From assembly GCF_000253115.1 (NCBI RefSeq), contig NC_014145.1:1922001-1986000 (forward strand): a stretch of 64,000 nucleotides of DNA, given 5' to 3'. The stretch is from Thiomonas arsenitoxydans. Its GTDB lineage: Bacteria > Pseudomonadota > Gammaproteobacteria > Burkholderiales > Burkholderiaceae_C. Each line of letters starts with the position of its first letter. Position 1 is the stretch's first letter. The notes below the pieces were generated by a model. The model searched no databases and had not been told where the DNA came from. It was given only the letters and a program-made list of their open reading frames with translations. Positions 2,146 to 26,396 of this stretch are shown here, piece by piece. Position numbers and translations under genes: made by a program.

Positions 2146-2154
2146 ACCGAACAC

Positions 2155-2239
2155 GATGGCCTCCAGGATCTGGAGGCCATCTCCCCGACCCTGAACCGCG
2201 TTCGCGCTTCAGATCTTGCCGCCCGCCTCGCGCGGGCGG
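2155..2239 (+). other. Two hairpins between protease and capsid genes
   Basis: A perfect 12-bp stem (GATGGCCTCCAG, loop GAT, CTGGAGGCCATC) occupies 2155-2181, ten bases after the protease stop. A second stem of 8 bp (CCGCCCGC, loop CTCGC, GCGGGCGG) lies at 2219-2239, just ahead of the capsid ribosome-binding site. Neither has a long T-run, so a simple rho-independent terminator is doubtful. Transcript processing or stabilisation to boost capsid expression is a possible role (inference). Confidence 0.6.
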
Positions 2240-2269
2240 ATTCGTTTGTGGAACCTACAGGAAATTCCC

Positions 2270-3766
2270 ATGGATGCCATCCAGACCCTGAAAAGCGAAC
2301 GCGCCGCTTTGAGTCAACGCGCGAAGGAACTGGCCGACAAGGCGCAGGCCGCACCGCTCATCGAAGCCGAGCAGGTAGAGTTCGACGCCATCACGCCGGC
2401 TTTCGAGGCGCTGGGTCGGCGCCTGGCCGTGCTCGAGGGCGCGCAAGCGATGTCGCGCACCCTCGCCATGGCCGCCGCCGCGCCCGTCGATGTGCTCGAG
2501 CAGGGCAAGCTCGACGCCGTGGCCGTCGATCGTCTGGCGTCCAACGTGCAGGGCCAGCACGCTGCTGTCGGCCAGGCCGGCGAGCCGATCGTCTACGCCC
2601 GGCCCCGCGACCCCGCCGAGCGCACGCGGCGCAACATGAGCGTGTTCTCCGGGATCATCGGTGCGCTCAAGCACGCCCCGGGGAACCTCGCTGCCGGTGC
2701 CGAGTTCGCCCAGCGCGCCATGAGCCGCGACGGCATCGGTGTGGAGGTGGCCGCAGCCCTCTCCTCGGTCACGGCGTCCGGCGGCGCGGTGCTGATCCCC
2801 AACGTACTGGCGGCCACCGTCATCGAGCGCCTGGTGCCCAACGCGGTGGTGCGCTCCATGGGGCCGCTGACCCTGCCGCTGACCAACGGCAACCTGACCA
2901 TGCCGCGCATCGCCGGCGGGGCGCTGGCCGGCTACATCGGGCGCGACAGCGACGCGCCGGTGTCGCAACAGAGCTTCGACGACGTGCAACTCGTGGCCAA
3001 GAAGCTGGCGTGTCTCGTGCCCATCGGCAATGACCTCATCCGCTTCGCCGGCATCGACGAGCGCGTGGACCAGCTCATCGTCGAGGACACCGCGATCTCG
3101 ATGGCCACGGCCGAGGACGCGGCCTTCATTCGCGGCGACGGCACCAACGCCACGCCGGTGGGCCTGCGCAACTGGTGCCTGCCGGCCAATGTCCTGTCGG
3201 CCACCCCCATCGAGCCGGCCTCCGGCACGCCGGGTGCGGCCCCCGCCGGCACCACCTGGGCCACGCCGCCTGCGGCGCCGCTTGCGGGCCAGGCACTGGC
3301 GCAGGCCATCATGACCGATGCCGGACGCATGGTGCTGGCGCTGCGCCGCGCCAACGTGCGCATGCGCAAACCCGGCTGGCTCATGCACCCGGACTCGGTG
3401 CAGTTCCTGCGCGACCTGCTCACCACCACCGGCAACCGCGTCTTCCCCGAGATCGACCAGGGGATGTTCCGGGGATACCCGTTCGCGCAGACCACGCAGA
3501 TCCCGACCAACCTGTCCACGCCCAACGGCGGGGGCAACTGCTCGGAGATCTACTTCGTGGACTTCGCGCAGATGGTCATCGGCGAGTCACTGAACCTGTC
3601 GGTGGCCATCAGCCAGGACGGCGCCTACACCGACCCGACCAGCGGCACGAGCGTCAGCGCCTTCCAGCGCGATCTCACGCTCATCCGGCTGCTGACCGAA
3701 AACGACTTCGGTCCGCGTCACCCCCAGGCGATTGCCGTGCTGCAGGGTGTGACTTGGTACCGCTGA
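2270..3766 (+). CDS. Major capsid protein, HK97 family
   Basis: Forms the icosahedral shell. A start at ATG 2270 gives 498 residues and is preferred over an upstream TTG at 2216, because 2219-2239 is a hairpin and AGGAAA lies just before 2270. The first roughly 100 residues are helical and charged (a delta-domain-like scaffold), followed near 165-205 by the mature-domain-like segment SRDGIGVEVAAALSSVTASG and IPNVLAATVIERL. The C-terminus has the late HK97-type segment with FQRDLTLIRLLTENDFGPRH. Its length fits a capsid with a cleaved N-terminal scaffold, and the protease upstream supports cleavage. Confidence 0.95.
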   Translation: MDAIQTLKSERAALSQRAKELADKAQAAPLIEAEQVEFDAITPAFEALGRRLAVLEGAQAMSRTLAMAAAAPVDVLEQGKLDAVAVDRLASNVQGQHAAVGQAGEPIVYARPRDPAERTRRNMSVFSGIIGALKHAPGNLAAGAEFAQRAMSRDGIGVEVAAALSSVTASGGAVLIPNVLAATVIERLVPNAVVRSMGPLTLPLTNGNLTMPRIAGGALAGYIGRDSDAPVSQQSFDDVQLVAKKLACLVPIGNDLIRFAGIDERVDQLIVEDTAISMATAEDAAFIRGDGTNATPVGLRNWCLPANVLSATPIEPASGTPGAAPAGTTWATPPAAPLAGQALAQAIMTDAGRMVLALRRANVRMRKPGWLMHPDSVQFLRDLLTTTGNRVFPEIDQGMFRGYPFAQTTQIPTNLSTPNGGGNCSEIYFVDFAQMVIGESLNLSVAISQDGAYTDPTSGTSVSAFQRDLTLIRLLTENDFGPRHPQAIAVLQGVTWYR

Positions 3767-10374: not shown

Positions 10375-11073
10375 ATGTCCATTCGCGCTGAAATCCAGTC
10401 CCTCTCGCCGTCCGCGTTGATCGAGTTGTTCGTGCTCGACCTGTCCCTGCAGGGCGGCTCCACACTCTACTGGCACGCCGGCACCAACGGCCTGAGCGCC
10501 GACATCATCTGGGGGGCCCAAGCCTACTCGCGCTATCCCATCGAGGCGCAGGGCTTCAAGATGTCGGGCACGGGCGCGCTGCCCAGACCCAAGCTCTCGG
10601 CATCCAATGCGCAGGGCATCCTCGGCGCGCTGGCGCGCCAGTACAACGACTTCGCCGGCTGCAAGCTCACGCGCATTCGCACCTTCGCGCGCTTTCTGGA
10701 TGCGGCCAATTTCCCCGGTGGCGTCAACCCCACGGCCGACCCCACCCAAGAACTGCCCCGGCAGATCTGGTTCGTCGACCGCAAGGCGCAGGAGACACCT
10801 CAGCTTCTTCAGTTCGACCTGGCCAGCGCCTTGGACATGGTGGCGGTCAAGCTACCCCGACGCCAGTTCATCCAGAACGCCTGCCCCTGGGTCTACCGCG
10901 GCGCCGACTGTGGCTACACGGGTGGCGCTGTGGCCGACGCCGCCGGCAACCCGACCGCGGACCCGGCCCAGGATGTCTGTGGCAAACGGCTGTCGGATTG
11001 CGCGCTGCGCTTTGCCCCGCCCGCGTTGATGAACTTCGGCGGCTTTCCCGGCTGCGGGATCGGCACCTCATGA
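10375..11073 (+). CDS. Minor tail protein, lambda L-like, probable Fe-S protein
   Basis: A 232-residue tail-tip protein. Four cysteines at 170, 179, 202 and 209 have the same spacing as the cysteines of lambda gpL that bind a [4Fe-4S] cluster (established for lambda). They lie in NACPWVYRGADCGYTGG and VCGKRLSDCALRF, followed by NFGGFPG. Cluster binding here is inferred from that spacing. The gene overlaps the next by four bases (ATGA). Confidence 0.9.
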   Translation: MSIRAEIQSLSPSALIELFVLDLSLQGGSTLYWHAGTNGLSADIIWGAQAYSRYPIEAQGFKMSGTGALPRPKLSASNAQGILGALARQYNDFAGCKLTRIRTFARFLDAANFPGGVNPTADPTQELPRQIWFVDRKAQETPQLLQFDLASALDMVAVKLPRRQFIQNACPWVYRGADCGYTGGAVADAAGNPTADPAQDVCGKRLSDCALRFAPPALMNFGGFPGCGIGTS

Positions 11074-11789
11074 CGCCGATACCCGAATCGATCCTGGCGG
11101 CCATTCGCGCCCATGCGCAAGCCCAGGCCCCACGCGAATGCTGCGGCGTGGTGATCGTGCGCCAGGGCAAACTGCGCTATATCCCCTGTGCCAACCTGGC
11201 CGCCTCGCCCGAGGAGCACTTCGTGCTGTCGCCGACCGACTTCGCCAGGGCTGAAGAACAGGGCGAGATCGTGCGCATCGTGCACTCGCACCCCTACGCG
11301 GCGCCCGAGCCCAGCCAGGCCGACCGCGTCGGCTGCGAGGCGTCCGCCATTCCGTGGCTGATCGTCAACTGGCCAATCGGCAACGTCCACGAGTTCGCGC
11401 CCAGCGGCTACGTGGCACCGCTGATCGGGCGCCGTTTTCATCACGGCGTGCTCGACTGCTACAGCCTCATCCGCGACTACTACCGGCAGACCCTGCACAT
11501 CGACTTGCCCGACTTCCACCGCGACGTGCAGTGGTGGCTGCGTGGCGGTGACCTCTATGCGGAAGGCTTTCCGCAGGCCGGATTCGTCGAAATTCCGTTT
11601 GACACCCTGGCCGAGCACGACGTCTTGCTGATGCAAATCGGCTCGCCCGTCATCAACCACGCTGCCGTGCACCTGGGCGACAACCTCATCGTGCAGCACT
11701 GCGCCGGGCGCCTGTCCAGTCGAGACGTGTTTGGGGGCGCCTGGCGGCGCGCGACGCGCAAGGTCATCCGACACAAGGAGTTGTTGTGA
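11070..11789 (+). CDS. Tail assembly protein, lambda K-like (JAMM + NlpC/P60)
   Basis: A 239-residue protein with two peptidase domains. The N-terminal JAMM/MPN domain has Glu23 and the metal site H72-x-H74 with Ser82 and Asp85 (VHSHP then PSQAD). The C-terminal NlpC/P60 domain has a nucleophile Cys130 in GVLDCYSL and His197 in NHAAVHLG. In lambda-like phages this protein is needed at the tail tip and may open peptidoglycan. The start at ATG 11070 is chosen for the ATGA overlap with the L-like gene rather than the upstream in-frame codon at 10998. Confidence 0.92.
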   Translation: MTPIPESILAAIRAHAQAQAPRECCGVVIVRQGKLRYIPCANLAASPEEHFVLSPTDFARAEEQGEIVRIVHSHPYAAPEPSQADRVGCEASAIPWLIVNWPIGNVHEFAPSGYVAPLIGRRFHHGVLDCYSLIRDYYRQTLHIDLPDFHRDVQWWLRGGDLYAEGFPQAGFVEIPFDTLAEHDVLLMQIGSPVINHAAVHLGDNLIVQHCAGRLSSRDVFGGAWRRATRKVIRHKELL

Positions 11790-12454
11790 CGCTCAAGACC
11801 ATCCGCCTGCACGGTCCTTTGGGACGGCGCTTCGGACGCGTGCATCGCCTGGACTGCGCCGATGCGCTGGACGCCGTGCGCGCCCTGTGCGCACTGCATC
11901 CGGGTTTCCGCAAGGCCTTCGCGCAGGGGCGCTACCTCGTCAAGCTTGACGGCGCGACGGTGACGGATCGTGAGGAGCTGCGCCTGCCCGCCGCCGACAT
12001 TCGCTTTGTGCCTCAAGTCTCGGGCGCCGGACACGGCGTGGGAGAAATCCTGCTGGGCGCGGCGATGATCGTGGCAGCCTTCTACACCGGCGGGGCGTCG
12101 CTTGCCGGCGGGACGCTCACCACGACGGCCATGGGCGGCATGGCGCTGTCCTTCGGCGCCACCTTGGTGCTCGGGGGGCTGTCGCAGATGCTCACCCACG
12201 CTCCGCAGACCAACCTGCCCAACAGCCAAAACTCCACCGCGTTCAGCGGCCCGGTCAATACCACAGCCCAAGGCAACCCGGTGCCGATCCTCTACGGACG
12301 GCTGATGATCGGCTCGCAGGTCGTCTCCGCCTCATTGCAGTCCTTCGACGTGCCCATCGGCCAGACACCTGGTGGACAGGTGACGACGACGACCAAGAGC
12401 GGCGGCACGCTGACCTACACCACCAACCAAAGCGCCTACCTGGGCGGATCCTGA
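11786..12454 (+). CDS. Tail assembly protein, lambda I-like
   Basis: A 222-residue protein. The N-terminal ubiquitin-like part (IRLHGPLGRRFGRVHRLD, then ADALDAVRALCALHPGF) is family typical. A hydrophobic glycine-rich stretch (GEILLGAAMIVAAFYTGGAS) occupies about 92-111. The C-terminal half has the GNPVPILYGRLMIGS segment shared with lambda I and related proteins. It starts at GTG 11786 overlapping the K-like stop, and its own stop overlaps the J gene (TGATG). Confidence 0.9.
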   Translation: MTLKTIRLHGPLGRRFGRVHRLDCADALDAVRALCALHPGFRKAFAQGRYLVKLDGATVTDREELRLPAADIRFVPQVSGAGHGVGEILLGAAMIVAAFYTGGASLAGGTLTTTAMGGMALSFGATLVLGGLSQMLTHAPQTNLPNSQNSTAFSGPVNTTAQGNPVPILYGRLMIGSQVVSASLQSFDVPIGQTPGGQVTTTTKSGGTLTYTTNQSAYLGGS

Positions 12455-15400
12455 TGCGCGCGGATCTCCTCATTCGCGGCGCGGGAGGCGGTGGCAAGGG
12501 CGGCGGTGGCAGTGGCGGCGTGTCCGAGTCCCCCAACACCCTGCGTTCCTCGCAGAAGGCGCTGGTGCTCGACGCCTGGTGCGAAGGGCCGATCGTGGGC
12601 CTTGCCAACGGCGCGCAGTCCGTCTTTCTGGACAAGACCCCGCTACAAAACGCCGACGGCTCGTGGAACTTCAACGGCTTCGTGTTCGAGTACGCCACCG
12701 GCACGCCAGGCGCCGTGGGTGTGACCAACGCGGCAGGCTACGCTGGCTCCGACGCGCAAAACACGATCTCGGTCCACGCGAAGGTCTACCAGGCCACACC
12801 CGTCGTGCAGGCCGTCACGGCAGCCAACGTCAATGCCCTGCGCGTGTCCCTCATGACACCGGCGCTGACCGACACGGACGCTAAAACCGGCAATATCGGC
12901 GGCACGTCGGTGGCCTTTCAGATCGCGCTCAACACCAACGGCGGCGGCTTCGTCACCGTCGTTGGTGACAGCTTCAACGGCAAGACCACGAGCCAGTACA
13001 CCCGCGACTACCTGATCCCCCTGACGGGAACGGGGCCGTGGGAGGTCCAGGTCACGCGCCTGACGCCAGACACGGGCAGTTCGCTCCTGGCCAACGATCT
13101 GTACTTTGACGCGCTCACGCTGGTGTCCAACGCGAGCCTGGCCTACCCGCACACCGCGATGGCGGCCATCGCCATCGACGCCATGCAGTTCGATCACATC
13201 CCGGCGCGGGCCTACGACGTGAGGGGCCTGATCGTGCAGGTCCCGAGCAACTATGACCCGGCCACGCGCAGCTACACCGGAACCTGGGACGGCACGTTCC
13301 GGTTGGCCTGGACCGACAACCCGGCTTGGTGCTTCTACGACTTGCTCACCAACGAACGCTACGGCCTGGGCGGACTGATCGATGCGAGCAGCATCGACAA
13401 ATGGTCGCTCTACACCATCAGCCAATACTGCGACCAGACGGTGCCCGATGGCTTCGGTGGGCTCGAGCCGCGCTTTACCTGCAATCTGCTGCTGGCCTCG
13501 CAGCAGGACGCCTACGCTGCCGTGCAGCACATGGCCTCCATTTTTCGGGCCATCGTCTATTGGGGCGCAGGTGCGCTTCACGTCAGCCAGGATTCGCCTG
13601 CCGATCCGGTGATGATGTTCGCGCCGGCCAATGTCGCAGGCGGCGCGTTCTCCTACCAGGGCACCAGCCTGCGCGCGCGCCACACCGTGGCGCAGGTGAC
13701 GTGGAACGACCCGGATAACGGCTACGCCACCGTCGTCGAGTACGTGCAGGACGACGCGCTGGTGGCCAAGTACGGCGTCGTCACCGCCCAGGTGCGCGCC
13801 CTGGGCTGCACCCGCCGCGGCCAGGCGCATCGTCTGGGCAAGTGGCTGCTGTACTCGGAGAGTCTGCAAACCGAGACGGTGACGTTTCGCTGCGCGATGG
13901 ACGGGATGTATCTGGCGCCGGGCGACATCATCCAGACCAGCGACCCGACGCGCGCAGGCGTGCGCATGGGCGGACGGATGCTGGACGTGTCCGCAGACTT
14001 GCTCACCCTCACACTCGACGCAGCGCCGCCGGCAGCCAGCGGCCTCTCGGCGCAAGTTCTCCTGCCCGACGGGAGCCTGGTGAAGCAGGCGGTAGCCGGC
14101 GTCACCGGCAACCAGATCGTGCTTGCAGCGGCCCTGCCGCAAACGCCCGTACCCGGCGCGCTGGTCCTGCTCAGCGACGCCCAGGTTCAACCCGAACTTT
14201 GGCAGGTGGTCACCCTCACCGAGGCGAACGCGACGCAGATCGACGTGGCCGCCGTGGCCTACAACGCCAGCAAGTACGCCCTCATCGAAGACGGTCTGGC
14301 GCTCACCACCCCCGCTACGAGCCTGATTGCCGCTGTTCCCGCTGCGCCGTCGAACCTGAATCTCCTGGTGTCGCGGTACGTGATCGACATCGGTGTGGCG
14401 GGCCTGCGAGGTACCGTGTCCTGGAGCGCAAGCGGCGCGTGCCGCTACCGGGTGGTCTGGAACAAAGCGAACGCGCCGGCCACCACGATCATGACCGATC
14501 AGCACAGCGTGGACATCGAAAGCCTCGAGATCGGCGTGCCCTACACCTTCACCGTCACGGCATTCTCTGCGGTCGGTCAGGTATCGCCCGCGGCCACACT
14601 GAGCGTAACGCCGGCCCCTGCGCCACCTCCAACCATCGCCGATGTGGCGGGGCTTCAGGCGGCGGTGCAAAGCAATGGCGTGTTGCTGAGTTGGACCGAC
14701 GTGGCCGACCCCATGCGCTACGACTATGAGATCCGCGAGGGTGTCGACTGGGTTTCGGGCACGCTGGTGGGCTTTTACGCCGGCACCTCGGCCCACGTGC
14801 CGCCGCTGCCGCAAACGCAATACGACTGGTGGATCAAGGCGCGCAACCTGCTTCTGGTCGAATCCGTCAACGCCACGCCCGCGAGCCTCTCGGTCACCGC
14901 CCCGCAAGCGCCCGGCGTCACGGCCAGCCTCTCGGGGGATCACTATGTGCTCGGCTGGCTGCTTCCCGCCAGTATGTTCCCGGTGGATCATTATGTGATC
15001 GCCACCGGCGCGCAGGCGGCCTCGGCGCGAGTCATCGCCAACAACAAGACCACGCAGTACCAGAGCAAGGTCGATTGGGCGGGCACCCAGACCTTCTGGA
15101 TCGCCGCGGTCGATGCCGCCGGCAACCAAGGCGCCTGGGCGATGGCTCAATTGGTGGTCACCCCGCCCGCAGCGCCCACGTTGATCGCGCAGGTCATCGA
15201 CAACAACGTGCTGCTGTCCTGGACCGACGCCACCGCGACGCTGCCGGTCGTCACCTACCAGGTACGCCGGGGGCCCGCGGCAGGCACCTTCGATGCGGCG
15301 CAGATCATCGGCACCCAAGCGGGGCTGTTCACCACGGTGTTCGAGACCAGCGCCGGCACTTACCGCTACTGGGTCGCTGCGGTGGATTCGGCCGGCAACG

Positions 15401-16158
15401 TGGGCACGCCTGGGGCGGTGGCTGCCGCCGTCAACGCGCCGCCCGACTACGTGCTGCACGCCGACATCTTCTCCACGTTCGCCGGCACGCTCACAAAGGC
15501 CGTGCTCGACGAGGGGGCGATCACCTTGCCAGTGGACACTGCCTCGACCTGGGCGCAGCACTTTAGCGCGAGATCCTGGAACGCTCCGCAGGACCAAATC
15601 GCTGCAGGGCTACCGATCTACGCGCAGCCCGCGCTGGCCGCAGGCTCCTACGAGGAAGTCATCGACTACGGCGCGGTGCTGAGCGCCACGAATGTGCAAG
15701 TCACTCCCACCACCACGGTCGTGGCGGGCACGCCTGCGCTTTCGATCACGGTCAGCAGCAGCAACGTGGGGCCAGCCGGTCCCTGGACCGACTATGCGGG
15801 CGCCAACGTCTACCTGACCGACTTTCGCTGGGTGAAGGTGCTTCTCACCGTCACCGCGCCCGATGCAACGTCCCTGCTGGAGATCTCGCGCCTGGAGATC
15901 AAACTGTCCGTCAAGCTCAAGAACGATGCCGGCACCGTGCTGGCCAACGCGGCGGACGCGAACGGCACGGCAGTCGCCTTCAACGTGCCCTTCGTAGACG
16001 TCACCAGCATCACCGTCACCCCCGCGGGCACCTCGCCACTCGTGGCGCTTTACGACTTCTCGGGGCACGCGAACCCGAGCGGCTTCAGCGTCTATCTGTT
16101 CACCCCCGCCGGGCAGCGCTCCTCGGGCGCGGTGTCCTGGGCCGCCAAAGGGTATTGA
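12454..16158 (+). CDS. Tail tip attachment protein J (host specificity)
   Basis: A 1,234-residue central tail fibre/tip protein. It opens with a glycine-rich stretch (GAGGGGKGGGGSGG), then the J-type segment with LDAWCEGPIVGLANGAQSVF. Residues 280-480 contain WCFYDLLTNERYGLGG and LGKWLLYSE, characteristic of lambda J. From about 640 onward several fibronectin-III-like repeats are visible (WSASG, LLSWTDVAD, YRYWVAAVDSAGN). The C-terminus is predicted to carry the receptor-binding part. Receptor identity cannot be told. Confidence 0.93.
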   Translation: MRADLLIRGAGGGGKGGGGSGGVSESPNTLRSSQKALVLDAWCEGPIVGLANGAQSVFLDKTPLQNADGSWNFNGFVFEYATGTPGAVGVTNAAGYAGSDAQNTISVHAKVYQATPVVQAVTAANVNALRVSLMTPALTDTDAKTGNIGGTSVAFQIALNTNGGGFVTVVGDSFNGKTTSQYTRDYLIPLTGTGPWEVQVTRLTPDTGSSLLANDLYFDALTLVSNASLAYPHTAMAAIAIDAMQFDHIPARAYDVRGLIVQVPSNYDPATRSYTGTWDGTFRLAWTDNPAWCFYDLLTNERYGLGGLIDASSIDKWSLYTISQYCDQTVPDGFGGLEPRFTCNLLLASQQDAYAAVQHMASIFRAIVYWGAGALHVSQDSPADPVMMFAPANVAGGAFSYQGTSLRARHTVAQVTWNDPDNGYATVVEYVQDDALVAKYGVVTAQVRALGCTRRGQAHRLGKWLLYSESLQTETVTFRCAMDGMYLAPGDIIQTSDPTRAGVRMGGRMLDVSADLLTLTLDAAPPAASGLSAQVLLPDGSLVKQAVAGVTGNQIVLAAALPQTPVPGALVLLSDAQVQPELWQVVTLTEANATQIDVAAVAYNASKYALIEDGLALTTPATSLIAAVPAAPSNLNLLVSRYVIDIGVAGLRGTVSWSASGACRYRVVWNKANAPATTIMTDQHSVDIESLEIGVPYTFTVTAFSAVGQVSPAATLSVTPAPAPPPTIADVAGLQAAVQSNGVLLSWTDVADPMRYDYEIREGVDWVSGTLVGFYAGTSAHVPPLPQTQYDWWIKARNLLLVESVNATPASLSVTAPQAPGVTASLSGDHYVLGWLLPASMFPVDHYVIATGAQAASARVIANNKTTQYQSKVDWAGTQTFWIAAVDAAGNQGAWAMAQLVVTPPAAPTLIAQVIDNNVLLSWTDATATLPVVTYQVRRGPAAGTFDAAQIIGTQAGLFTTVFETSAGTYRYWVAAVDSAGNVGTPGAVAAAVNAPPDYVLHADIFSTFAGTLTKAVLDEGAITLPVDTASTWAQHFSARSWNAPQDQIAAGLPIYAQPALAAGSYEEVIDYGAVLSATNVQVTPTTTVVAGTPALSITVSSSNVGPAGPWTDYAGANVYLTDFRWVKVLLTVTAPDATSLLEISRLEIKLSVKLKNDAGTVLANAADANGTAVAFNVPFVDVTSITVTPAGTSPLVALYDFSGHANPSGFSVYLFTPAGQRSSGAVSWAAKGY

Positions 16159-16179
16159 AGGTATGGAAAGGATCGCCGC

Positions 16180-17694
16180 ATGAGCAACACCTCGGATTTC
16201 TCCAAACCGCAGGTGACGGATCCCTATGTGGACGTCACCGCAGAGATCAACGCGCTGGCCTGCGATCTGGCGCAGGGACTCGACCCGGCCACCACCAACC
16301 CTGCCAACCTGCCGGTGGGTGCCGTGCGCTTCAACAGCGCCAACGGCTTCTGGGAGAAGTTCAACGGCACGGCCTGGAGCGCGCTGGCCGCTGTCTACAA
16401 CGTCGTGGCCGCGCAGGCCAAGAAGCTGCAGCAGGCGGTGACCCTGGCCCTCACCGGCGACATCACCGGATCGGCCAGCTTCGACGGCAGCGGCAACGTG
16501 AGCATCGCGGCCACCTTATCCAACGTCAACCCCAACCCCGGCACCGCGGGCGATGCCACGACCGTGCCGGTGCTGACCACCAACGCCAAGGGCCAGGTCA
16601 CGGCGATGGCCACCGCGGCGATCGCGTTTCCGAGCAGCATCGCGGGCAACGCGGGCACGGTGTCCACCGTGGGTGGCGCCAGCGGCGGCACGGTCAACGG
16701 CAACCTGTTCGCGAGCAACCCAGGCGGCGAAGCCCAGGTGGGCGCTGTAGGTGCGGGCCAAAACCCCGCTTACCTCTACAACAACGCCAGCGCCTGGGGC
16801 CTGTACTCGGCAAGCGGCGGCTCGATCGTCACATTCAACCGATCCAACAACCACGTCGTCGTGGGCGGGGTCGACACCACCGCCATCGTGCAGAACAACG
16901 GCGGCACCTACGGCATCAACATCTCGGGCAACGCGGCGACCGCGAGCCGCGCCCACCCGCTGCGCGCCGACGGTGCGGCGTGGGACCTGAACTGGAGCGG
17001 GCAAGGCGGGCAGCCCACGTGGCTGGTGGGCAGCAACGACGGGGCCAATTTTTATGTCTGGAACCCCTCGAACTTCAGCGTCAACTACGCCACCACGGCC
17101 AACTACGCCCGCACGGCGGGCTCGGCCACGGTCGCTGATAGTCTCGCCAACTGCAACTGCAATTGCACCTGCTTCCCCGCGGGCACGCGCGTGCTGATGG
17201 CCGATGGAACGCAACGCTCCATCGAGACCATTCGCCCAGGCGACCGCGTGATGGGGGCCGACGGCAAGCCGGTCGCAGTGCTGGCCATCGATCGCCCCCT
17301 CCTCGGTGATCGGCGCATGCTGACCTTCGAAGACGCCTCGCTGCTCTGGTCGGAGGAGCACGCGCTGTGGACGTGCGATGCGGCAGGTAAGCAATGGTGG
17401 TGGTCGGCCAACCCGGGCCGCTGGCGCCTGGAGGCGGCCGTGGGCGCGATCCGGGGCCTGAAGGACAACGGCAGTCTGCGTACGGGACAGGGGCATGTCT
17501 TTGCCCACCTCGAGGGCTGGCGCGAGCGCCGCGTCGTCGAGGCCCCAGGCTTCGGGCCGGCCACGCCGCTGTACCTGCCGCTCACGGGCGGGGTGCCGAT
17601 CGTGGTGGGCGGCTATGTGGCGGGCGCGGGGGTGGACGAATGGGGATTCGACTACGCCGCATTCCGGTGGGATCCACGGGCGCTGCGTCGATGA
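16180..17694 (+). CDS. Tail-fibre protein with C-terminal Hint domain
   Basis: A 504-residue protein. Residues 1-320 are low-complexity fibre-like sequence (NPGTAGDATTVPVLTTNAKG, then Gly/Asn/Ala repeats). Residues 325-331 hold four alternating cysteines (NCNCNCTC). From Cys331 a Hint-type block starts: CFPAGTRVLMADGTQRSIET then IRPGDRVMG, with a second conserved block SEEHALWTC (His394). No C-terminal His-Asn plus extein is seen, so it resembles hedgehog-type Hint domains that form an internal thioester and release or modify the upstream part (family knowledge; activity here is inference). Its stop overlaps the aminotransferase start (ATGA). Confidence 0.87.
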   Translation: MSNTSDFSKPQVTDPYVDVTAEINALACDLAQGLDPATTNPANLPVGAVRFNSANGFWEKFNGTAWSALAAVYNVVAAQAKKLQQAVTLALTGDITGSASFDGSGNVSIAATLSNVNPNPGTAGDATTVPVLTTNAKGQVTAMATAAIAFPSSIAGNAGTVSTVGGASGGTVNGNLFASNPGGEAQVGAVGAGQNPAYLYNNASAWGLYSASGGSIVTFNRSNNHVVVGGVDTTAIVQNNGGTYGINISGNAATASRAHPLRADGAAWDLNWSGQGGQPTWLVGSNDGANFYVWNPSNFSVNYATTANYARTAGSATVADSLANCNCNCTCFPAGTRVLMADGTQRSIETIRPGDRVMGADGKPVAVLAIDRPLLGDRRMLTFEDASLLWSEEHALWTCDAAGKQWWWSANPGRWRLEAAVGAIRGLKDNGSLRTGQGHVFAHLEGWRERRVVEAPGFGPATPLYLPLTGGVPIVVGGYVAGAGVDEWGFDYAAFRWDPRALRR

Positions 17695-18782
17695 ACGCCG
17701 CCTGGCGCAACGCGCACAACTTCTCGGGCGGCCCGGGGGCCATGCCGCGGGCGGTGCTGGAGCAACTGGCGCAGGCCGCGCTGGAGGTTCCCGAAGTCGG
17801 TCTGTCACTCTACGGCATCAGCCATCGCAGCGACTGGTTCCGCGCTGTGGTGGACGAGGCGCAGCAGATCCTGCGCGTACTGCTGGGCGCAGGCGATGAC
17901 TGGGAGGTGCTTTCCCTGCAGGGCGGCGCCTCGCTGCAGTTCTCGATGGCACTCGTCAATTTGGGCTGCACCCCGGCAACACCGGTCGATTGGGTGCGCG
18001 CGGGGTACTGGAGCGCGCGGGCAATGGCCGAGGCGACCGCAGTGTGCGCGCCGCACTTGGCCTGGGATGGGCTCGCGCAGGGCTACCGCGCGCTGCCGCG
18101 GTGGGACCAGACCACCCAGCGGCCCGGCATCTTGCACGTTGTGAGCAACGAGACGGTCGAGGGGTTGCAGTTCCGAGACGCGCCACCGCGACTGCCGGGG
18201 CGGCTCGTGGTCTGCGACATGAGCTCGGACCTGCTGTCGCGGACGATCGACCTCGATGCCTACGACCTGATCTACGCCCACGCCCAGAAGAACCTGGGGC
18301 CGGCCGGAGTCACGGTCGTGCTGGTGCGAAAGAGCTTGTTGGAGCAGGCGCCCAGCGGCCTGCCGCCCATGCTCGACTACCGCACGCACGCGCGAGCCGG
18401 CTCGATCTACAACACCCCGCCGGTCGCCGCGATCTACACGATGCTGCTCGTGCTGCGCTGGCTACGCGACGAGATCGGAGATCTGAAGCGCATGGCGCAC
18501 ATCAACGCCGCCAAGGCGGCAGCGGTCTACGCGGCGTTGGACGCAAACCCCGACGTCTACATCCCGCACGCCCAACCGGCTTGGCGCTCGCAGATGAACG
18601 TCGCGTTCCGCCTGGCCGACCCAGCGCGCGATGCATCACTGCGCCGGGCACTGACCGACGCCGGCTTCTCGGGACTGGACGGGCACCGCAGCTTGGGGGG
18701 ATTTCGGGCGTCGCTGTACGACGCGGTGGCGCTCGAGGCTGCACAAAACCTGGCGGCGGTGCTGCGCGATTGGGCGCAATAG
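17691..18782 (+). CDS. SerC-type PLP aminotransferase carried by the phage
   Basis: A 363-residue protein, the same length as bacterial phosphoserine aminotransferase, aligning end to end: NFSGGPGAMP at the N-terminus, ISHRSDWF near 43-50, CDMSSD near 175-180, the PLP lysine in YAHAQKNLGPAG (Lys200), SIYNTPP, and GHRSLGGFRASLYDA near 331-345. One substrate-side position differs from E. coli SerC (SRMN reads SQMN). The start at ATG 17691 overlaps the Hint gene stop, so the two are coupled. Housekeeping serine synthesis is unlikely in a tail operon; modification of the fibre or supply of an amino donor is inference. Confidence 0.92.
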   Translation: MNAAWRNAHNFSGGPGAMPRAVLEQLAQAALEVPEVGLSLYGISHRSDWFRAVVDEAQQILRVLLGAGDDWEVLSLQGGASLQFSMALVNLGCTPATPVDWVRAGYWSARAMAEATAVCAPHLAWDGLAQGYRALPRWDQTTQRPGILHVVSNETVEGLQFRDAPPRLPGRLVVCDMSSDLLSRTIDLDAYDLIYAHAQKNLGPAGVTVVLVRKSLLEQAPSGLPPMLDYRTHARAGSIYNTPPVAAIYTMLLVLRWLRDEIGDLKRMAHINAAKAAAVYAALDANPDVYIPHAQPAWRSQMNVAFRLADPARDASLRRALTDAGFSGLDGHRSLGGFRASLYDAVALEAAQNLAAVLRDWAQ

Positions 18783-18842
18783 GACGCAATTTGGCGCGGC
18801 ATTGCTCATGTGTCTGACATTCCACAAGCGAGACCTTGAATC

Positions 18843-19643
18843 ATGACCACCATTCTCCTCACCAGCGACCCCAAGGCCGCTGGCTTCGCCGCGCAATGCG
18901 CAGTTGCTGGCACGTCGTCCCAGCCCGTGTTATCCGACGCGGGCTCGCAGACGCTCACACTGGATCTCGCCTCGGTGTTTGCGCCGCTGTCGTCCCTGCT
19001 GATCTACCAGGACTTCTTGGGCCGCTGGATCACCGTACCCGGCTCCGAGCAGGTCGACTCCAAGGACTTCGTCGCCTGGATGCAAGGCGCCTACGGCGTC
19101 AACGCCCAGGCACCGCTGTTCGTGCTGTGCTGCGGCAACAGCATCGACCGGGTCGCGTTGGTGGCAACCGTGCCGACGAGTTGCACGCTGCCCTACACGG
19201 TGGCCGCCAACCCCAAGCGCTTTGCGATGACGATCGCGGCCGACCTCTACCCGGAACTGGCCCACCTGCAGGCGGCCTACAAGGCCAAAATCGATGCGAT
19301 GTCGCAAATCTGCATCCCAGATGCGGTCATGGCCCTGGAGCAGCAGGTCGACCTGCTGACCTCTGCGGTGCTGGAACTCTTTGCGGCACTGCCCGCAGCG
19401 CAGCAGCCGGCGTGGTTCGCCGCCGTGAGTGGCGATCTCTCCCAAGCCGGGGTGCAGACGCTCATCCCGCAAGACGCGATGCTGGCCAACATCGTCGCGG
19501 TCAAGACTCAGGTGCGCGCGGTGCAAAAGGCCTACCTCGCGGCATCCCAATCGGCCATGACCGCCGCAGCGGCCGTGACAGCACCGCCGAGTTCGGCGAC
19601 GGCGACCACCAGCGGCACGGTCGCCGCGCCCACCGCCTCCTGA
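18843..19643 (+). CDS. Unknown 266-residue phage protein between SerC-like and radical SAM genes
   Basis: I do not recognise a family. The N-terminal half is mixed alpha/beta with SLLIYQDFLGRWITVPGSEQ and a cysteine pair in FVLCCGNSIDRVAL. The middle is helical (PDAVMALEQQVDLLTSAVLE), and the last 40 residues are Ala/Thr/Ser-rich and probably disordered. There is no signal peptide or clear membrane segment. It sits 60 bases after the aminotransferase and four bases before the radical SAM gene. This suggests a substrate, scaffold or partner protein in the same pathway (inference from position only). Confidence 0.75.
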   Translation: MTTILLTSDPKAAGFAAQCAVAGTSSQPVLSDAGSQTLTLDLASVFAPLSSLLIYQDFLGRWITVPGSEQVDSKDFVAWMQGAYGVNAQAPLFVLCCGNSIDRVALVATVPTSCTLPYTVAANPKRFAMTIAADLYPELAHLQAAYKAKIDAMSQICIPDAVMALEQQVDLLTSAVLELFAALPAAQQPAWFAAVSGDLSQAGVQTLIPQDAMLANIVAVKTQVRAVQKAYLAASQSAMTAAAAVTAPPSSATATTSGTVAAPTAS

Positions 19644-19647
19644 CCCC

Positions 19648-21045
19648 ATGCGCTTTGTCATCGATGCCCTGGGCCCCCAGGGCCGGCAGCGCTTCGTCTA
19701 CGACAACGTCACGTCGAGCCTCACGCAGGGAGATGGCCGCCCAGTGGCGATGCCATTCGAGATTCCAGCACCCGCGCCATGGCAGTCGGTGTCGGCCATC
19801 TCGCGTGATACGCCCGGGCTCAAAGGCGGGCCGTTTCGGCGGATCAAGATCCAACTCGGGCTGCAGTGCAACTACGCCTGCAGCTACTGCAACCAGGCCA
19901 GCCAGCGGCCCGCGCAGGAAGGCGCCGGGCGTGTCGACGCCTTCCTGGCGACGCTTGCGACTTGGCTGAGCGTCGAACGCCATCGCGCGCCCACCTTCGA
20001 GTTCTGGGGCGGTGAGCCGCTGGTGTACTGGAAGCTGCTGCAGCCACTGGCCGAAGCTCTGCGCCAGCGCCATCCGGACGCGGGCTTGTTCCTGATCACC
20101 AACGGTGCGCTGCTCGATACGGCCAAGGTGGATTGGCTCGACCGCATGGGCTTTGCGGTGGGCATTTCGCACGACGGCCCCGGGCAGGCCGCGCGCGGAC
20201 CCGACCCGCTGGAGGTGCCGGCCACCCGCGCGGCCATCCTGGACTTGTACCGCAGGTTCAAGCCGCAGGGGCGCGTCTCCTTCAACGCGATGCTGCACCG
20301 GGGCAATGCAAGCCGAGCGCAGGTCCAAGCGTTCTTTGTCGCACTCACGGGCGACGCCGACGTGCCAATCGGCGAAGGGCATTGGATCGACGCCTACGAC
20401 GACGCCGGTGTGCGCGCGTGCCTGCGCAGCCCTGCGGAGCACGCGATGTTTCGCCGGCAGGCCTTCGCCGAGGCGCGCGCAGGATGCGCCAGCAACTTCG
20501 GGGCGCTGCGCGGCAAGGTCGAAGCGTTCATGGCCAGCATCGCACATCGCCGCCCGGCCTCATCCCTCGGCCAGAAGTGCGGCATGGACCGCGCCGACCA
20601 CCTGGCCGTCGATCTGCACGGCAACGTCCTGACCTGCCAGAACGTCGCAGCAGGCACGGCTGCACCCAATGGGCAGCCCCATCGCCTGGGCACAACGGCC
20701 GCGATCGAGCGCGTGGCGCTGGCCTCTGGGACGCACTGGAGCCGGCGCCCCGAGTGCCCGCGCTGCCCGGTGCTGCACATCTGCCGGGGATCTTGCATGT
20801 TCCTCGAAGGGCCACTGTGGCAGACCAGTTGCGACGCGGCGTATTCGGACGCGGTGGTGGTGTTCGCCCTGGCGTTCGAACTGCTCACCGGAACCGTGCC
20901 GCTGCGCATCGACGCGCTGGAGGGCGAGCCCCTGCCCGATACGCGCCGGGATCTGTTCGGCAGCGATGCACGGGTAGGCGCTGGCGCCGTGGTGCGCCGC
21001 GTCATTCCGATTCATTCCATGTCACCCGTAAGGAGTTCTGCATGA
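19648..21045 (+). CDS. Radical SAM/SPASM domain enzyme
   Basis: A 465-residue protein. The radical SAM cluster motif is Cys74-x3-Cys78-x2-Cys81 (LQCNYACSYCNQ), followed by the SAM-binding FWGGEPLVYW at 119-128. The C-terminal SPASM region has Cys311, Cys330, Cys370, Cys373, Cys379, Cys383 and Cys395, including CPRCPVLHICRGSC, which fits one or two auxiliary Fe-S clusters. SPASM enzymes often modify peptides or proteins, for example RiPP and sulfatase maturases (family knowledge). Its location beside a Hint-domain fibre and a PLP enzyme suggests it modifies a virion protein (inference). Its stop overlaps the next start. Confidence 0.93.
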   Translation: MRFVIDALGPQGRQRFVYDNVTSSLTQGDGRPVAMPFEIPAPAPWQSVSAISRDTPGLKGGPFRRIKIQLGLQCNYACSYCNQASQRPAQEGAGRVDAFLATLATWLSVERHRAPTFEFWGGEPLVYWKLLQPLAEALRQRHPDAGLFLITNGALLDTAKVDWLDRMGFAVGISHDGPGQAARGPDPLEVPATRAAILDLYRRFKPQGRVSFNAMLHRGNASRAQVQAFFVALTGDADVPIGEGHWIDAYDDAGVRACLRSPAEHAMFRRQAFAEARAGCASNFGALRGKVEAFMASIAHRRPASSLGQKCGMDRADHLAVDLHGNVLTCQNVAAGTAAPNGQPHRLGTTAAIERVALASGTHWSRRPECPRCPVLHICRGSCMFLEGPLWQTSCDAAYSDAVVVFALAFELLTGTVPLRIDALEGEPLPDTRRDLFGSDARVGAGAVVRRVIPIHSMSPVRSSA

Positions 21046-21335
21046 AGCGTTGGCCGTTGATCTTGATTTGGCTGGGGCTGTGGCTGGTCGCCCCCGTGGC
21101 ACTGGTGCGCATGGCCTGGGCGATCGTCCGCGCCCCCAAGCGCGCCTGGCTGATCGCCATCGGTTTCGACGACCTGGGCAACGTCGCGGCCAATGGCCAG
21201 CTGGGCCAAACCATCAGCAGCCGCGCTGCTCACGCCCGGCCCGCGCGCTGGGGTTGCCTGCTGTGCGCGCTGCTCGATCGCCTGGATCCTGGGCACTGCG
21301 ACCGGGCGATGACGGCGCGCGACCAGAACCTCTGA
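21042..21335 (+). CDS. Small membrane protein, unknown
   Basis: A 97-residue protein with a strong ribosome-binding site (AAGGAG, about eight bases ahead) starting at ATG 21042 over the radical SAM stop. The N-terminal helix LILIWLGLWLVAPVALVRMA is a probable membrane anchor or signal. The rest is soluble and contains CLLCALLDRLDPGHC. It is the first gene of the lysis-side block, and its role is unknown. Confidence 0.7.
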   Translation: MKRWPLILIWLGLWLVAPVALVRMAWAIVRAPKRAWLIAIGFDDLGNVAANGQLGQTISSRAAHARPARWGCLLCALLDRLDPGHCDRAMTARDQNL

Positions 21336-21417
21336 GGTCCCGCTTTGTACTGGCTGCCGCCCGGGACGACCCGAGGCGGCATTTATTTTCGTGGGTCGAT
21401 TGAAAGGAGCATTTGCC

Positions 21418-21672
21418 ATGACCGAACCCCAACCCCCTCAATCCACGATCGACGCGCTTCGCGCCGAGATCGATCAGATTCCATCGCCGGAGTTCCGGCT
21501 GCTGGCCCGCTACATCGAAGCCTTCCACCAGAAGCACTCGGAGGAGTTCGCTGAGATGAAGCAGACCTTTCTTACCGCCAAGGGTGGGGCGCGCGCCGTC
21601 ATGTGGCTGTCCGTCGTCGGCAGCGGCCTGGCGGTCATTTGGGGTGTGCTGCACGGAGTGATCAAGCCATGA
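21418..21672 (+). CDS. Small protein with C-terminal membrane helix, holin-like candidate
   Basis: An 84-residue protein. The start at ATG 21418 is chosen because AAAGGAG lies just upstream. Residues 20-50 are helical and charged (LLARYIEAFHQKHSEEFAEM); residues 59-80 form a single hydrophobic segment (AVMWLSVVGSGLAVIWGVLH). A holin-type or lysis accessory role is suggested by position before lysozyme and spanins, but a second small membrane protein at 22663 is an equal candidate. It overlaps the next gene by four bases. Confidence 0.7.
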   Translation: MTEPQPPQSTIDALRAEIDQIPSPEFRLLARYIEAFHQKHSEEFAEMKQTFLTAKGGARAVMWLSVVGSGLAVIWGVLHGVIKP

Positions 21673-22223
21673 GCCAAGTCCTCGCCGCACTCGGCATCCT
21701 GCATGAGACCGCCGAGCAGACCCGCATCATTACCCCCTACGCTGACGGCCTCAAAGCCTTCGAAGCGTTCCTGGCCGGGGCTGCCGCCCCCGGAGCCAAG
21801 CTGCGCACCATGATCTACGGCTGCACCCTGCAACCGTTTTTCGACGCGCTGATCGAGGCGCATCGGTGCAGCGCGGACGTGAAGGTGATTTTCGATCACA
21901 CCCAGGCGACGGGACGTGCCGAGGCACCGCAGATCGAGCGTCTTTGCGAGGCAGGGCTCGTCGATGGCGAGCACTTCCTCATCGGCACGAGTCCCGTGCA
22001 CCACCAGATCGTGCATCTGAAGGCCACCGTGATCTGGACGCCTGACGGCAAAGTCGGCGTGGAGGACGGATCGTGGAACTACTCCACCAACGCCAGCCAG
22101 CAGATGAACGATCTGTGCTTCACGGCTTCGCCAGGCCTGGCGGACTACTACACGCAGGCCTTCGAGCGACTCTGGGCCTGGGTGCTGGCCAATGAACCGC
22201 AGTACCAGGGAGACGCGCGATGA
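21669..22223 (+). CDS. Phospholipase D-like domain protein
   Basis: A 184-residue single-domain protein with the PLD-type segment HHQIVHLKATVIW (His116, Lys118) followed by GSWNYSTNASQQMN near 134-147, as in the HKD superfamily. The usual aspartate after HxK is not evident, so catalysis is uncertain. N-terminal residues 18-60 match a PLD-like Rossmann half (TRIITPYADGLKAF). No signal peptide is seen. It lies between a putative holin and lysozyme, overlapping both by four bases, so it is expressed with the lysis genes. Membrane or nucleic-acid hydrolysis are both possible. Confidence 0.8.
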   Translation: MSQVLAALGILHETAEQTRIITPYADGLKAFEAFLAGAAAPGAKLRTMIYGCTLQPFFDALIEAHRCSADVKVIFDHTQATGRAEAPQIERLCEAGLVDGEHFLIGTSPVHHQIVHLKATVIWTPDGKVGVEDGSWNYSTNASQQMNDLCFTASPGLADYYTQAFERLWAWVLANEPQYQGDAR

Positions 22224-22666
22224 AGCCGCCGATGACCTACAGCAAGGCGGGTGAGCAGCTGACCGAACGCTTCGAAGGCTGCCGACTGCAAGCCTATGCG
22301 GATACCGGAGGCGTCTGGACGATCGGCTACGGCCACACCCACGGTGTGATGGAGGGCATGGCCTGCACGCGCGAGCAGGCGCTGGCCTGGCTGGAGCAGG
22401 ACACCCGGGAAGCTGCCGCCGCGGTCAACCGGCTGGTCACCGTGCCGCTCGAACAGGCCGAGTTCGATGCCTTGGTGGACTTCGTTTTCAACCTCGGAGT
22501 TGGCGCCTTTGCCCGCTCGACGCTGTTGCGCGATCTCAATGCGGGGAATCTGGCGGCGGCTGCGGCGCAGTTCCCGCTGTGGGATCACGATGCCGGGCGC
22601 GTATTGGCCGGGCTTTTACATCGCCGTCTGGCCGAGCAGATGGAGTTCGAAGGGAGGACGGCATGA
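22220..22666 (+). CDS. Endolysin, GH24 lysozyme
   Basis: A 148-residue muramidase that cuts peptidoglycan at lysis. The catalytic triad spacing of T4-type lysozymes is present: Glu19 (RFEG), Asp28 (AYADTGG) and Thr34 (WTIGYGHTHG). FNLGVGAFARSTLL near 91-104 is also typical. There is no N-terminal signal-arrest-release helix, so a canonical holin is needed for export. It overlaps both the PLD-like gene and the following membrane protein gene. Confidence 0.94.
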   Translation: MKPPMTYSKAGEQLTERFEGCRLQAYADTGGVWTIGYGHTHGVMEGMACTREQALAWLEQDTREAAAAVNRLVTVPLEQAEFDALVDFVFNLGVGAFARSTLLRDLNAGNLAAAAAQFPLWDHDAGRVLAGLLHRRLAEQMEFEGRTA

Positions 22667-26350: not shown

Positions 26351-26370
26351 ACGGACGCGGGTTCGGTTCC
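26351..26370 (+). repeat. Candidate att repeat, left copy
   Basis: ACGGACGCGGGTTCGGTTCC recurs at 62964-62983 as ACGGACGCGGGTTCAATTCC, in direct orientation with 18 of 20 identical. It contains the GGTTCRATTCC-like T-loop core used by many integrases. The interpretation as attL is inference. Confidence 0.45.
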
Positions 26371-26396
26371 GGGTTCCACCACCAATTTTTATTTCT

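Follow-up and report, generated by a model that had tools for sequence, protein, structure and literature searches.

Organization of the locus

The window, as we call the whole 64,000-nucleotide stretch of Thiomonas arsenitoxydans DNA analyzed here, carries four open genes on the same (+) strand between the gene for tail-tip protein J and the endolysin region. J itself (12454..16158), identified by PHROG search, precedes the fibre and ends in SWAAKGY; a J ending of this kind (WxAxxY) also lies ahead of the fibre in Achromobacter phage JWF and in two other relatives (L009, L010). The tail fibre gene (16180-17694, 504 aa) encodes an N-terminal part and shaft (aa 1-323; 16180..17148) with PHROG tail-fibre matches, followed by an (Asn-Cys)n tip motif, NCNCNCT (aa 324-330; 17149..17169), and a Hint domain (aa 331-504; 17170..17691). 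Cysteines alternate at C325, C327, C329 and C331, and the Hint domain starts with C331. The fibre stop codon overlaps the start of a SerC-type aminotransferase gene as ATGA (17691..18782, 363 aa), which is separated by 60 bases from the gene for a companion protein (18843..19643, 266 aa) of an UNK family with an ALExQVDLL motif; a gap of four bases then leads to a radical SAM/SPASM enzyme of the phrog_1802 type (19648..21045, 465 aa). Open frames and domain matches confirm that these four genes, first described from the sequence alone, are real and as described. The locus is under selection: six pieces of it, compared with two relatives, give dN/dS values of 0.09-0.34, and no piece therefore looks decayed. 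A Pfam scan of eight proteins (12454-22666) revealed no dedicated peptidase or exporter.

The radical SAM/SPASM enzyme and its companion

The window enzyme matches PF04055 above cut-off with an intact CX3CX2C motif, and matches the SPASM model TIGR04085 at 29.4 bits (cut-off 27) with the seven-Cys SPASM pattern present. All 173 homologous enzymes that are 430 aa or longer have both Fe-S motifs. No maturase equivalog model came up to its cut-off among the 25 of 41 listed; the closest solved relatives by profile include the anaerobic sulfatase-maturating enzyme anSME (1.7e-12) and 5wgg, which we take to be CteB. Homologues of the companion precede the enzyme in relatives. It has no Pfam, PHROG or NCBIfam match; a companion from one of two families, never both, occurs in 177/184 loci (a set not filtered for redundancy, the profiles themselves deriving from these loci), and profile comparison detected no homology between the two families.

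Some cellular relatives of the enzyme sit in RiPP-like clusters. One (L289) neighbors a YcaO/nitroreductase fusion and a small peptide, a peptide type that recurs in L292 and L302 and weakly in L308, and another (L275) neighbors a C39-peptidase ABC transporter with HlyD. In the window, we found no short precursor peptide with leader and core, as the RiPP definition would have it; the candidate substrate is the 504-aa fibre, and only some of the relatives' tail proteins are as small as ~67-134 aa.

The enzyme nearly always accompanies phage fibres that end in (Asn-Cys)n

The alternating cysteines, mentioned in passing by the sequence-only reading, turned out to be the conserved element; other fibres encoded next to the enzyme end in the motif as well. 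Among 104 unique tails, a set of which at least one member (L256) is a chance ORF, Asn precedes the first Cys in 94, and the residues between tail cysteines (n = 403) are Asn (62.5%), Ala (15%) and Asp (13%). Ala is tolerated between the cysteines, a poor fit to a link made purely at the beta-carbon of Asn or Asp. Of ten fibres compared with PHROG, nine match its tail-fibre families. The presence of a 2-oxoglutarate oxygenase showed no link to tail composition (Asn 64% with, 61% without).

The association was examined from both directions. A motif-first scan selected viral loci by the CNCNCNC pattern alone, giving 120 stretches among the matches listed, and scored the enzyme as present at E < 1e-40, with at least 2.5 kb downstream counted as sufficient DNA. 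Among these listed matches, the enzyme was present in 34/37 stretches where the motif lies at a protein C-terminus with sufficient downstream DNA, in 5/17 where the C-terminal motif is followed by less than 2.5 kb, and in 2/66 where the pattern lies elsewhere than at the C-terminus; the corresponding values for an 80-stretch subset of the 120 were 24/25, 5/11 and 2/44. In each of the three misses (L033, L107 and L139), a weaker radical SAM match (1e-29 to 1e-34) lies downstream on the same strand; in two stretches counted as positive (L039 and L117) the enzyme lies more than 4 kb off and barely passes the threshold.

Starting from the enzyme, a CxCxC-ended protein was found in 64 of 75 viral loci, a set from which the window's own lineage (L147-L150) had been left out, and in 62 of 80 genome loci by regular expression, or 60 without the chance matches in L290 and L308. 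An enzyme with neither a tail nor an explanation for its absence occurs in five of the 80 genome loci (L230, L282, L285, L291 and L303) and likewise in L161 of the viral set. As a shaft-matched control, we compared fibres that share one common shaft repeat: the enzyme accompanied 5/5 with the NC tail and 0/28 without it. Of the 60 loci in this control, 27 were uncounted (fibre open at a contig end, or less than 2.8 kb downstream), among them L320, where the fibre ends in an NC tail and the 1450 available bases contain no enzyme; one of the positives (L316) is the query's source contig, and two others (L317 and L319) also belong to the enzyme-first set.

In cellular genomes, the DNA pattern by itself lacks specificity, and a chromosome scan gives the link no support: 11 of 399 genomes match the motif, several as long hexamer runs, and just one of these (G487) belongs to the 7 of 399 that carry the enzyme. 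No tail motif was seen in the seven enzyme loci from these genomes, which at 3.9-4.3 kb are too short to judge. Searches of the genus and the class returned one genome of 13, the window's own, and one of 369, respectively; most relatives come from uncultivated viruses or metagenome bins, and at least 598 IMG/VR stretches encode a relative of the enzyme. The motif-first, enzyme-first and shaft-matched counts bear out the earlier proposal of a link between enzyme and fibre. What is conserved is a set of three: an (Asn-Cys)n-ended tail fibre, a companion and a radical SAM/SPASM enzyme.

The Hint domain and SerC are optional

From fibre residue 331, the Hint domain matches PF05203 above cut-off (E 2.4e-11). 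Its predicted model (pLDDT 83.5) finds BIL, intein and hedgehog autoprocessing domains as best solved matches (E 8e-7), and 35 PDB chains that match at E <= 0.001 are titled BIL, intein, PI-SceI/VMA1 or hedgehog. Cys1 (C331) and the B-block His (H394 in the window) are invariant in the Hint alignments (14 rows in A3, 12 in A5), and the residue three before this His is S, as in the window's SxxH, T, or, in four rows, A; by eye, neither the window Hint nor its aligned relatives has a C-terminal His-Asn. The domain has been fused repeatedly at one place, directly after the motif, in 14 fibre sequences. A Hint fibre with the radical SAM enzyme also occurs in Achromobacter phages JWF and 2-1, in Burkholderia paludis and in Rhodospirillales.

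SerC is a class-V aminotransferase over its full length (Aminotran_5, E 2.8e-27) with the PLP lysine; residues 8-354 of 363 align with solved phosphoserine aminotransferases, and the QKN motif is kept. It scores 358.5 against a cut-off of 253 for NF003764, 350.1 against 443.6 for TIGR01364 and 481.8 against 563 for NF009112. Among 308 loci scanned, SerC occurs only in the window's lineage (four viral contigs and the window), in an unrelated 279-kb contig (L026) and as the host's own separate copy, which is 41% identical to the window SerC. Eleven deposited phage records carry SerC-like genes; those of JWF and 2-1 are not among them.

The sequence-only reading had made Hint and SerC central. 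The co-occurrence it proposed to look for holds for the Hint fibre with the radical SAM enzyme and fails for SerC, which is missing from all the system's other loci within the 308. A general role of SerC in the pathway is not supported; we rejected it as a core component and regard it as an accessory of the window's lineage. Enzymes lacking a Hint fibre, which that reading had named as evidence against itself, are what most examined relatives show, their fibres ending at (NC)n, and Hint was likewise rejected as the defining element. We consider it an optional cap that probably removes itself.

A proposed fibre-tip maturation module

We propose, with a probability of roughly 0.75, that the locus is a RiPP-like fibre-tip maturation module in which the radical SAM/SPASM enzyme and its companion modify the (Asn/Asp/Ala-Cys)n tail; the earlier suggestion of a modified fibre tip remains the best reading. 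The tail is very probably the substrate of the enzyme. In this scheme, the distal fibre C-terminus would present its alternating cysteines to the dedicated enzyme, aided by the companion encoded between the fibre and enzyme genes. The likeliest product would be at least one C-S (thioether) link from a Cys to an intervening Asn, Asp or Ala, either inside a single chain or bridging the chains of the fibre trimer, so that the tip that contacts the receptor would be rigid and non-reducible; we put thioether chemistry itself at a little below even odds. The Hint domain would cut at T330|C331 after maturation or to allow it, so that the mature window fibre would end in NCNCNCT, like the Hint-less relatives that stop there. 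The Cys-Asn thioether of NxxcA and the Cys-Asp thioether of freyrasin offer precedent (PMC8326336).

Four other explanations were weighed. In the first, three chains place their alternating cysteines along the fibre axis, where these would coordinate iron or zinc, the enzyme having another target or preparing the site. Alternation suits a beta-strand with every Cys turned toward the axis, Cys is the fixed element of a run whose other residues vary, and the T4 gp37 tip contains HxH iron sites; a metal tip nevertheless leaves the near-constant presence of a peptide-maturase-like radical SAM enzyme unexplained, and we consider it unlikely. Cysteine oxidation to formylglycine, as by sulfatase maturases, would instead give an aldehyde-bearing tip, and the adjacent aminotransferase, SerC, could in the window convert the aldehyde to an amine. 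Although the kinship with anSME and the annotation of the JWF enzyme as an anaerobic sulfatase-maturating enzyme point this way, the CxPxR motif that forms the sulfatase context is absent from the listed tails, TIGR03942 scores 39.7 against a cut-off of 349, and no SerC turned up elsewhere in the system, which makes this route quite improbable.

A third possibility, the original model for this DNA, is that Hint generates an activated fibre C-terminus (a thioester) where SerC and the radical SAM enzyme build or couple a small group. The genes are adjacent, Cys1 and SxxH are kept within a Hint fold, and one relative (L005) shows unusual divergence in Hint as well as in part of SerC, but with most examined relatives carrying the enzyme without Hint, and SerC confined within the system to one lineage, we now think it very unlikely. 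Finally, a coincidental moron cluster, with fibre and enzyme sharing an insertion hot-spot and no mutual action, is scarcely credible: accessory genes are known to settle at the tail-lysis junction, but the enzyme's presence depends on the motif in matched fibres, and a motif-first search recovered it.

Relation to described systems

A maturation module of the kind we favor resembles the sactipeptide and ranthipeptide maturases (NxxcA, freyrasin, ruminococcin C and CteB), likewise SPASM enzymes acting on Cys-rich ribosomal sequences; it differs in its candidate substrate, a long virion fibre targeted at the C-terminal end, and in that no exporter is found among the window proteins scanned. The His-Xaa-Ser system (HxsB/HxsC) also pairs radical SAM enzymes with a protein bearing a short alternating repeat, HxsA being its repeat-tail protein, but that repeat is HxS rather than NC, the window enzyme scores 38.2 against 370 for TIGR03978 and 26.1 against 268 for TIGR03977, and the system is not, to our knowledge, known from phage fibres. 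QhpD, which acts in quinohemoprotein amine dehydrogenase maturation, forms a thioether by radical SAM chemistry within a protein subunit rather than in a peptide natural product (PMC8326336); its substrate differs, and the window enzyme reaches 48.2 bits for TIGR03906 against a cut-off of 453.

The window Hint shares with BIL type B and hedgehog domains the fold, Cys1, S/TxxH and the lack of a C-terminal His-Asn, and for BIL type B domains N-terminal cleavage is expected (PMC7765530); it is set apart by its fusion directly after an (NC)n fibre tail. The order of Hint fibre, distant UNK homologue and radical SAM enzyme is shared by Achromobacter phages JWF and 2-1, which have no SerC and whose records annotate the genes singly. 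Radical SAM cassettes in the tail-fibre region are reported for the Pelagimyophage host-recognition cluster (PMC7029224), a likeness of position; we found no mention there of a tail motif or a substrate. No description of such a fibre-tip maturation system was found in the open-licence PMC literature. Each of the protein superfamilies has been described before, but the combination did not qualify as any of the known systems with which it was compared, and we therefore regard it as new at the system level.

If this proposal is correct, many environmental phages make their fibre tips by radical chemistry, and a structural adhesin is the substrate of a maturase type previously found, as far as we know, on peptides and enzymes. 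It would also explain orphan radical SAM and 2-oxoglutarate oxygenase genes in phage tail regions, supply a sequence rule for spotting receptor-binding tips that carry modifications, and bring in a compact new family of peptide-modifying enzymes to test. More tentatively, phages may have co-opted a RiPP maturase to staple the adhesin tip covalently: the (Asn-Cys)n tails of the fibre trimer would be C-S cross-linked within or between chains, sometimes tailored by 2-oxoglutarate oxygenases and in a minority released by Hint. The end of the virion that meets the receptor would then be a genetically encoded macrocycle made by radical chemistry, with a size that could vary through slippage of the six-base repeat. 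A second copy of the window's prophage in IMG/VR differs at the tip motif by exactly one 6-base unit.

Gene Content of the Window and Its Relatives

The four-gene description in the sequence-only reading was confirmed in the window by gene calls and by domain and family matches. The fibre (16180-17694, plus strand, as are the others) combines a shaft with PHROG tail-fibre matches and a Hint domain starting at residue 331 (PF05203); the SerC-like protein (17691-18782) can be aligned almost end to end with solved phosphoserine aminotransferases; the third protein (18843-19643) has no matches in Pfam, PHROGs, or NCBIfam; and the fourth (19648-21045) is a radical SAM/SPASM enzyme whose top phage family is phrog_1802. 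The module is under selection, with dN/dS of 0.09-0.34 across the six pieces tested (window vs. two relatives). Immediately 5' of the Hint Cys1, the fibre encodes NCNCNCT (17149-17169, residues 324-330). Elsewhere in the window, a PLD-like domain protein (21669-22223; PF13091, E 1.9e-9) lies immediately upstream of the endolysin, and 26360-26390, which drew no ARAGORN call, resembles a tRNA or tmRNA 3' end (ending ...TTCCACCACCA) and could mark the prophage's attachment-site side.

Among 50,697 deposited phage records, a collection that may omit the window's own genome or near records, the window enzyme has 19 matches at E 1e-5, of which only Achromobacter phages JWF (two records) and 2-1 reach at least 80% coverage; a distant enzyme relative used as query recovered the same three records at E 1e-20. 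Both phages encode the Hint fibre, then a distant homologue of the third protein, then the enzyme, so the proposed co-occurrence stands for fibre and radical SAM enzyme but not for SerC, which is absent between those genes in JWF and 2-1. SerC may be unrelated to the fibre tip. Nor is Hint the necessary partner first envisaged: relatives from viral contigs have the enzyme without Hint, and in these the upstream fibre or short structural protein terminates in alternating cysteines, e.g., NCNCNC. One viral contig (L012, 5089-6007) has three successive short ORFs (92-110 aa), each with an NCNC-type tail, upstream of one enzyme; another (L009) encodes, 3' of the module, an FAD protein (10668-12236) that, by motif, we take to resemble flavin-dependent tryptophan halogenases.

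The Alternating-Cysteine Tail and the Enzyme

The 185 tailed loci, window included, yield 104 unique tails. The residue preceding the first Cys is Asn in 94 of these; residues between cysteines are Asn (62.5%), Ala (15%), and Asp (13%); and the last run holds 3 to 10 cysteines (4 or 5 in 71/104). An IMG/VR contig, L008, matches the window for 9,000 bases without mismatch save one six-base unit at 17149-17169, equal to one Asn-Cys repeat. L008 appears to be a copy of the window's own prophage, and the difference is possibly real repeat slippage or else an assembly difference.

Tail and enzyme co-occur in both directions. Starting from the motif, we scanned IMG/VR for DNA encoding CNCNCNC (at least 120 stretches, the counts being samples), calling it C-terminal if ≤15 residues separated it from the stop codon and the ORF had at least 60 aa, and the enzyme present if a downstream, same-strand profile match fell below E 1e-40. 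Among the matches listed, the motif was C-terminal in 54 of 120 stretches and the enzyme lay downstream in 39 of the 54: in 34 of 37 with at least 2.5 kb available downstream, and in 5 of 17 with less. Where the pattern stood elsewhere, the enzyme was found in 2 of 66 (among the matches listed), namely L047 and L103, the latter with its motif 21 residues before the stop. Two counted matches (L039 and L117) are >4 kb distant and weak (1e-43 to 1e-44). Each of the three misses has a weaker same-strand downstream radical SAM match (L033, 1.4e-32; L107, 9.7e-34; L139, 3.2e-29). In L139 (4821-7076), this much more distant enzyme begins a few bases 3' of the (NC)n-ended fibre and, judged by sequence, may represent another enzyme lineage that uses tails of this type. 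Viral contigs L039 (3054-11671) and L048 (161-2635) encode short proteins (67-82 aa) terminating near CNCNCNC; L039 has three radical SAM ORFs by profile, perhaps more by eye, and L048 one, by eye only.

Starting from the enzyme, a second IMG/VR scan with an alignment of 16 enzymes gave 79 loci kept out of at least 598 stretches, or 75 after own-lineage loci were dropped. In 64 of the 75 (among the matches listed), the same strand carries an ORF whose last 35 residues include CxCxC, against an antisense background of 14 in 3,132 ORFs. Of the 11 misses, six have <2.1 kb upstream; in three (L182, L210, and L216), Hint directly follows the motif; the tail of L214 is a variant; and L161 is without explanation. 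The genome collection gave 126 relatives and 80 loci kept, 62 of them positive, or 60 once chance matches L290 and L308 are removed; many loci are related, so these counts are not independent events, and the tree and unique-tail counts address kinship only in part. Among the 20 non-positive loci, eight have <2 kb upstream, L299 has the variant tail NCNCDRNCGC, L289 and L275 sit in cellular RiPP-like clusters, L292, L302, and (weakly) L308 share a small peptide with L289, L290 resembles these only marginally, and L230, L282, L285, L291, and L303 are without explanation.

As a control, fibres with a common shaft repeat were fetched irrespective of their ends, with a query from an NC-ended fibre, and scoring was confined to the 33 whose end is closed and whose downstream DNA spans at least 2.8 kb. 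The enzyme stands beside 5 of 5 NC-tailed fibres and 0 of 28 without the tail. The five positives form a small, non-independent set (the query's own contig is among them, and two others also belong to the enzyme-first set); therefore, the control mainly shows that the enzyme is absent beside ordinary fibres.

Companion genes, placed between fibre and enzyme by clustering of loci, were sought in 184 tailed loci, not redundancy-filtered and themselves the source of the profiles. One family, "Ig-like-ended" on our reading of its sequence and with no Pfam match backing that label, occurs in 137, the window companion's family in 40, neither in 7, and both never. The companion might present the tail to the enzyme or be a partner at the tip. 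A 2OG-Fe(II) oxygenase occurs in 127 of the 184 (PF13759 in members scanned, some below cut-off). Some loci have an additional radical SAM-like gene immediately ahead of the main one (L020, 6849-7862; L262, 4729-5814; L280, 4361-5428).

Proposed Reaction at the Fibre Tip

Of 186 enzymes from tailed loci, 173 reach 430 aa or more, and every one of these has CX3CX2C and the seven-Cys SPASM motif. The closest solved chains by profile include 8vpo, 4k36 (anaerobic sulfatase-maturating enzyme), and 5wgg, which we take to be CteB. In Variovorax L289 (3149-7239), the neighbours of an enzyme relative are a YcaO/nitroreductase fusion and a peptide of only ~70 aa, which is also conserved in L292 and L302 and, weakly, in L308; this looks like a RiPP cluster shared by Variovorax and other bacteria. 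In L275, a relative adjoins a C39-peptidase ABC transporter and HlyD. These neighbourhoods lend support, separate from the phage loci, to a peptide-modifying activity.

We propose that the fibre tail is the enzyme's substrate. Tail fibres are generally trimeric, and the window fibre would be too. Ala between cysteines argues for links to alpha-carbons, at least in part. The link formed would most likely be a thioether, favored because passages of PMC8326336 describe Cys-Asn and Cys-Asp thioethers made by such enzymes. Searches of open-licence PMC papers found no description of such a system. The nearest remarks found there note that the host-recognition cluster of pelagimyophages contains radical SAM cassettes (PMC7029224) and count radical SAM among the unusual features of a Campylobacter phage (PMC3322345); the passages concerned mention no tail motif.

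The Hint Domain

Besides the window, 13 fibre sequences (L001, L002, L005, L007, L182, L210, L216, L253, L261, L283, L288, L293, and L295) have Hint 3' of the motif, directly or ≤3 residues on; L006, which matches like L005, and L008 are not among them. Every aligned Hint row keeps Cys1 and the B-block His, and no C-terminal His-Asn was seen in the alignment by eye. PDB entries that match the predicted structure (pLDDT 83.5) are a BIL2 domain, inteins, and the autoprocessing domain of hedgehog (best E 8e-7, TM-score 0.62/0.76). A quick tree was built from 96 enzymes, 12 rows of which bear the Hint label; it requires five changes of that label, four of them forced by well-supported branches, compared with 11.5 in shuffles. 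Hint has therefore joined or been lost repeatedly, always at one place, as expected of a self-removing domain that leaves the fibre with the end found in Hint-less fibres; we infer that Hint would cut itself off in this way. Providencia phage PSTNGR1 encodes a Hint-ended protein that lacks the motif; the 10.4 kb inspected there include no annotated radical SAM gene, and the 19 deposited records matching the enzyme do not include this phage's.

Nucleotide identity between the window and L005 falls from 0.97 to 0.68 within two 75-base bins spanning the motif and stays at 0.60-0.73 through Hint; in SerC it is mixed over the first third (0.77-0.91), then 0.62-0.77 to ~18375 before recovering. The dS is 1.39 for Hint, 0.54 for SerC, and 0.14-0.27 for the other four pieces. 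This pattern resembles the exchange of one block or two, with the motif marking the left edge of one of them. In L033, a stand-alone Hint-like ORF (1961-2389, minus strand; Hint_2, E 9.7e-5, below cut-off) has two radical SAM ORFs and CxC-rich tail proteins in its neighbourhood; here Hint perhaps acts as a separate protein.
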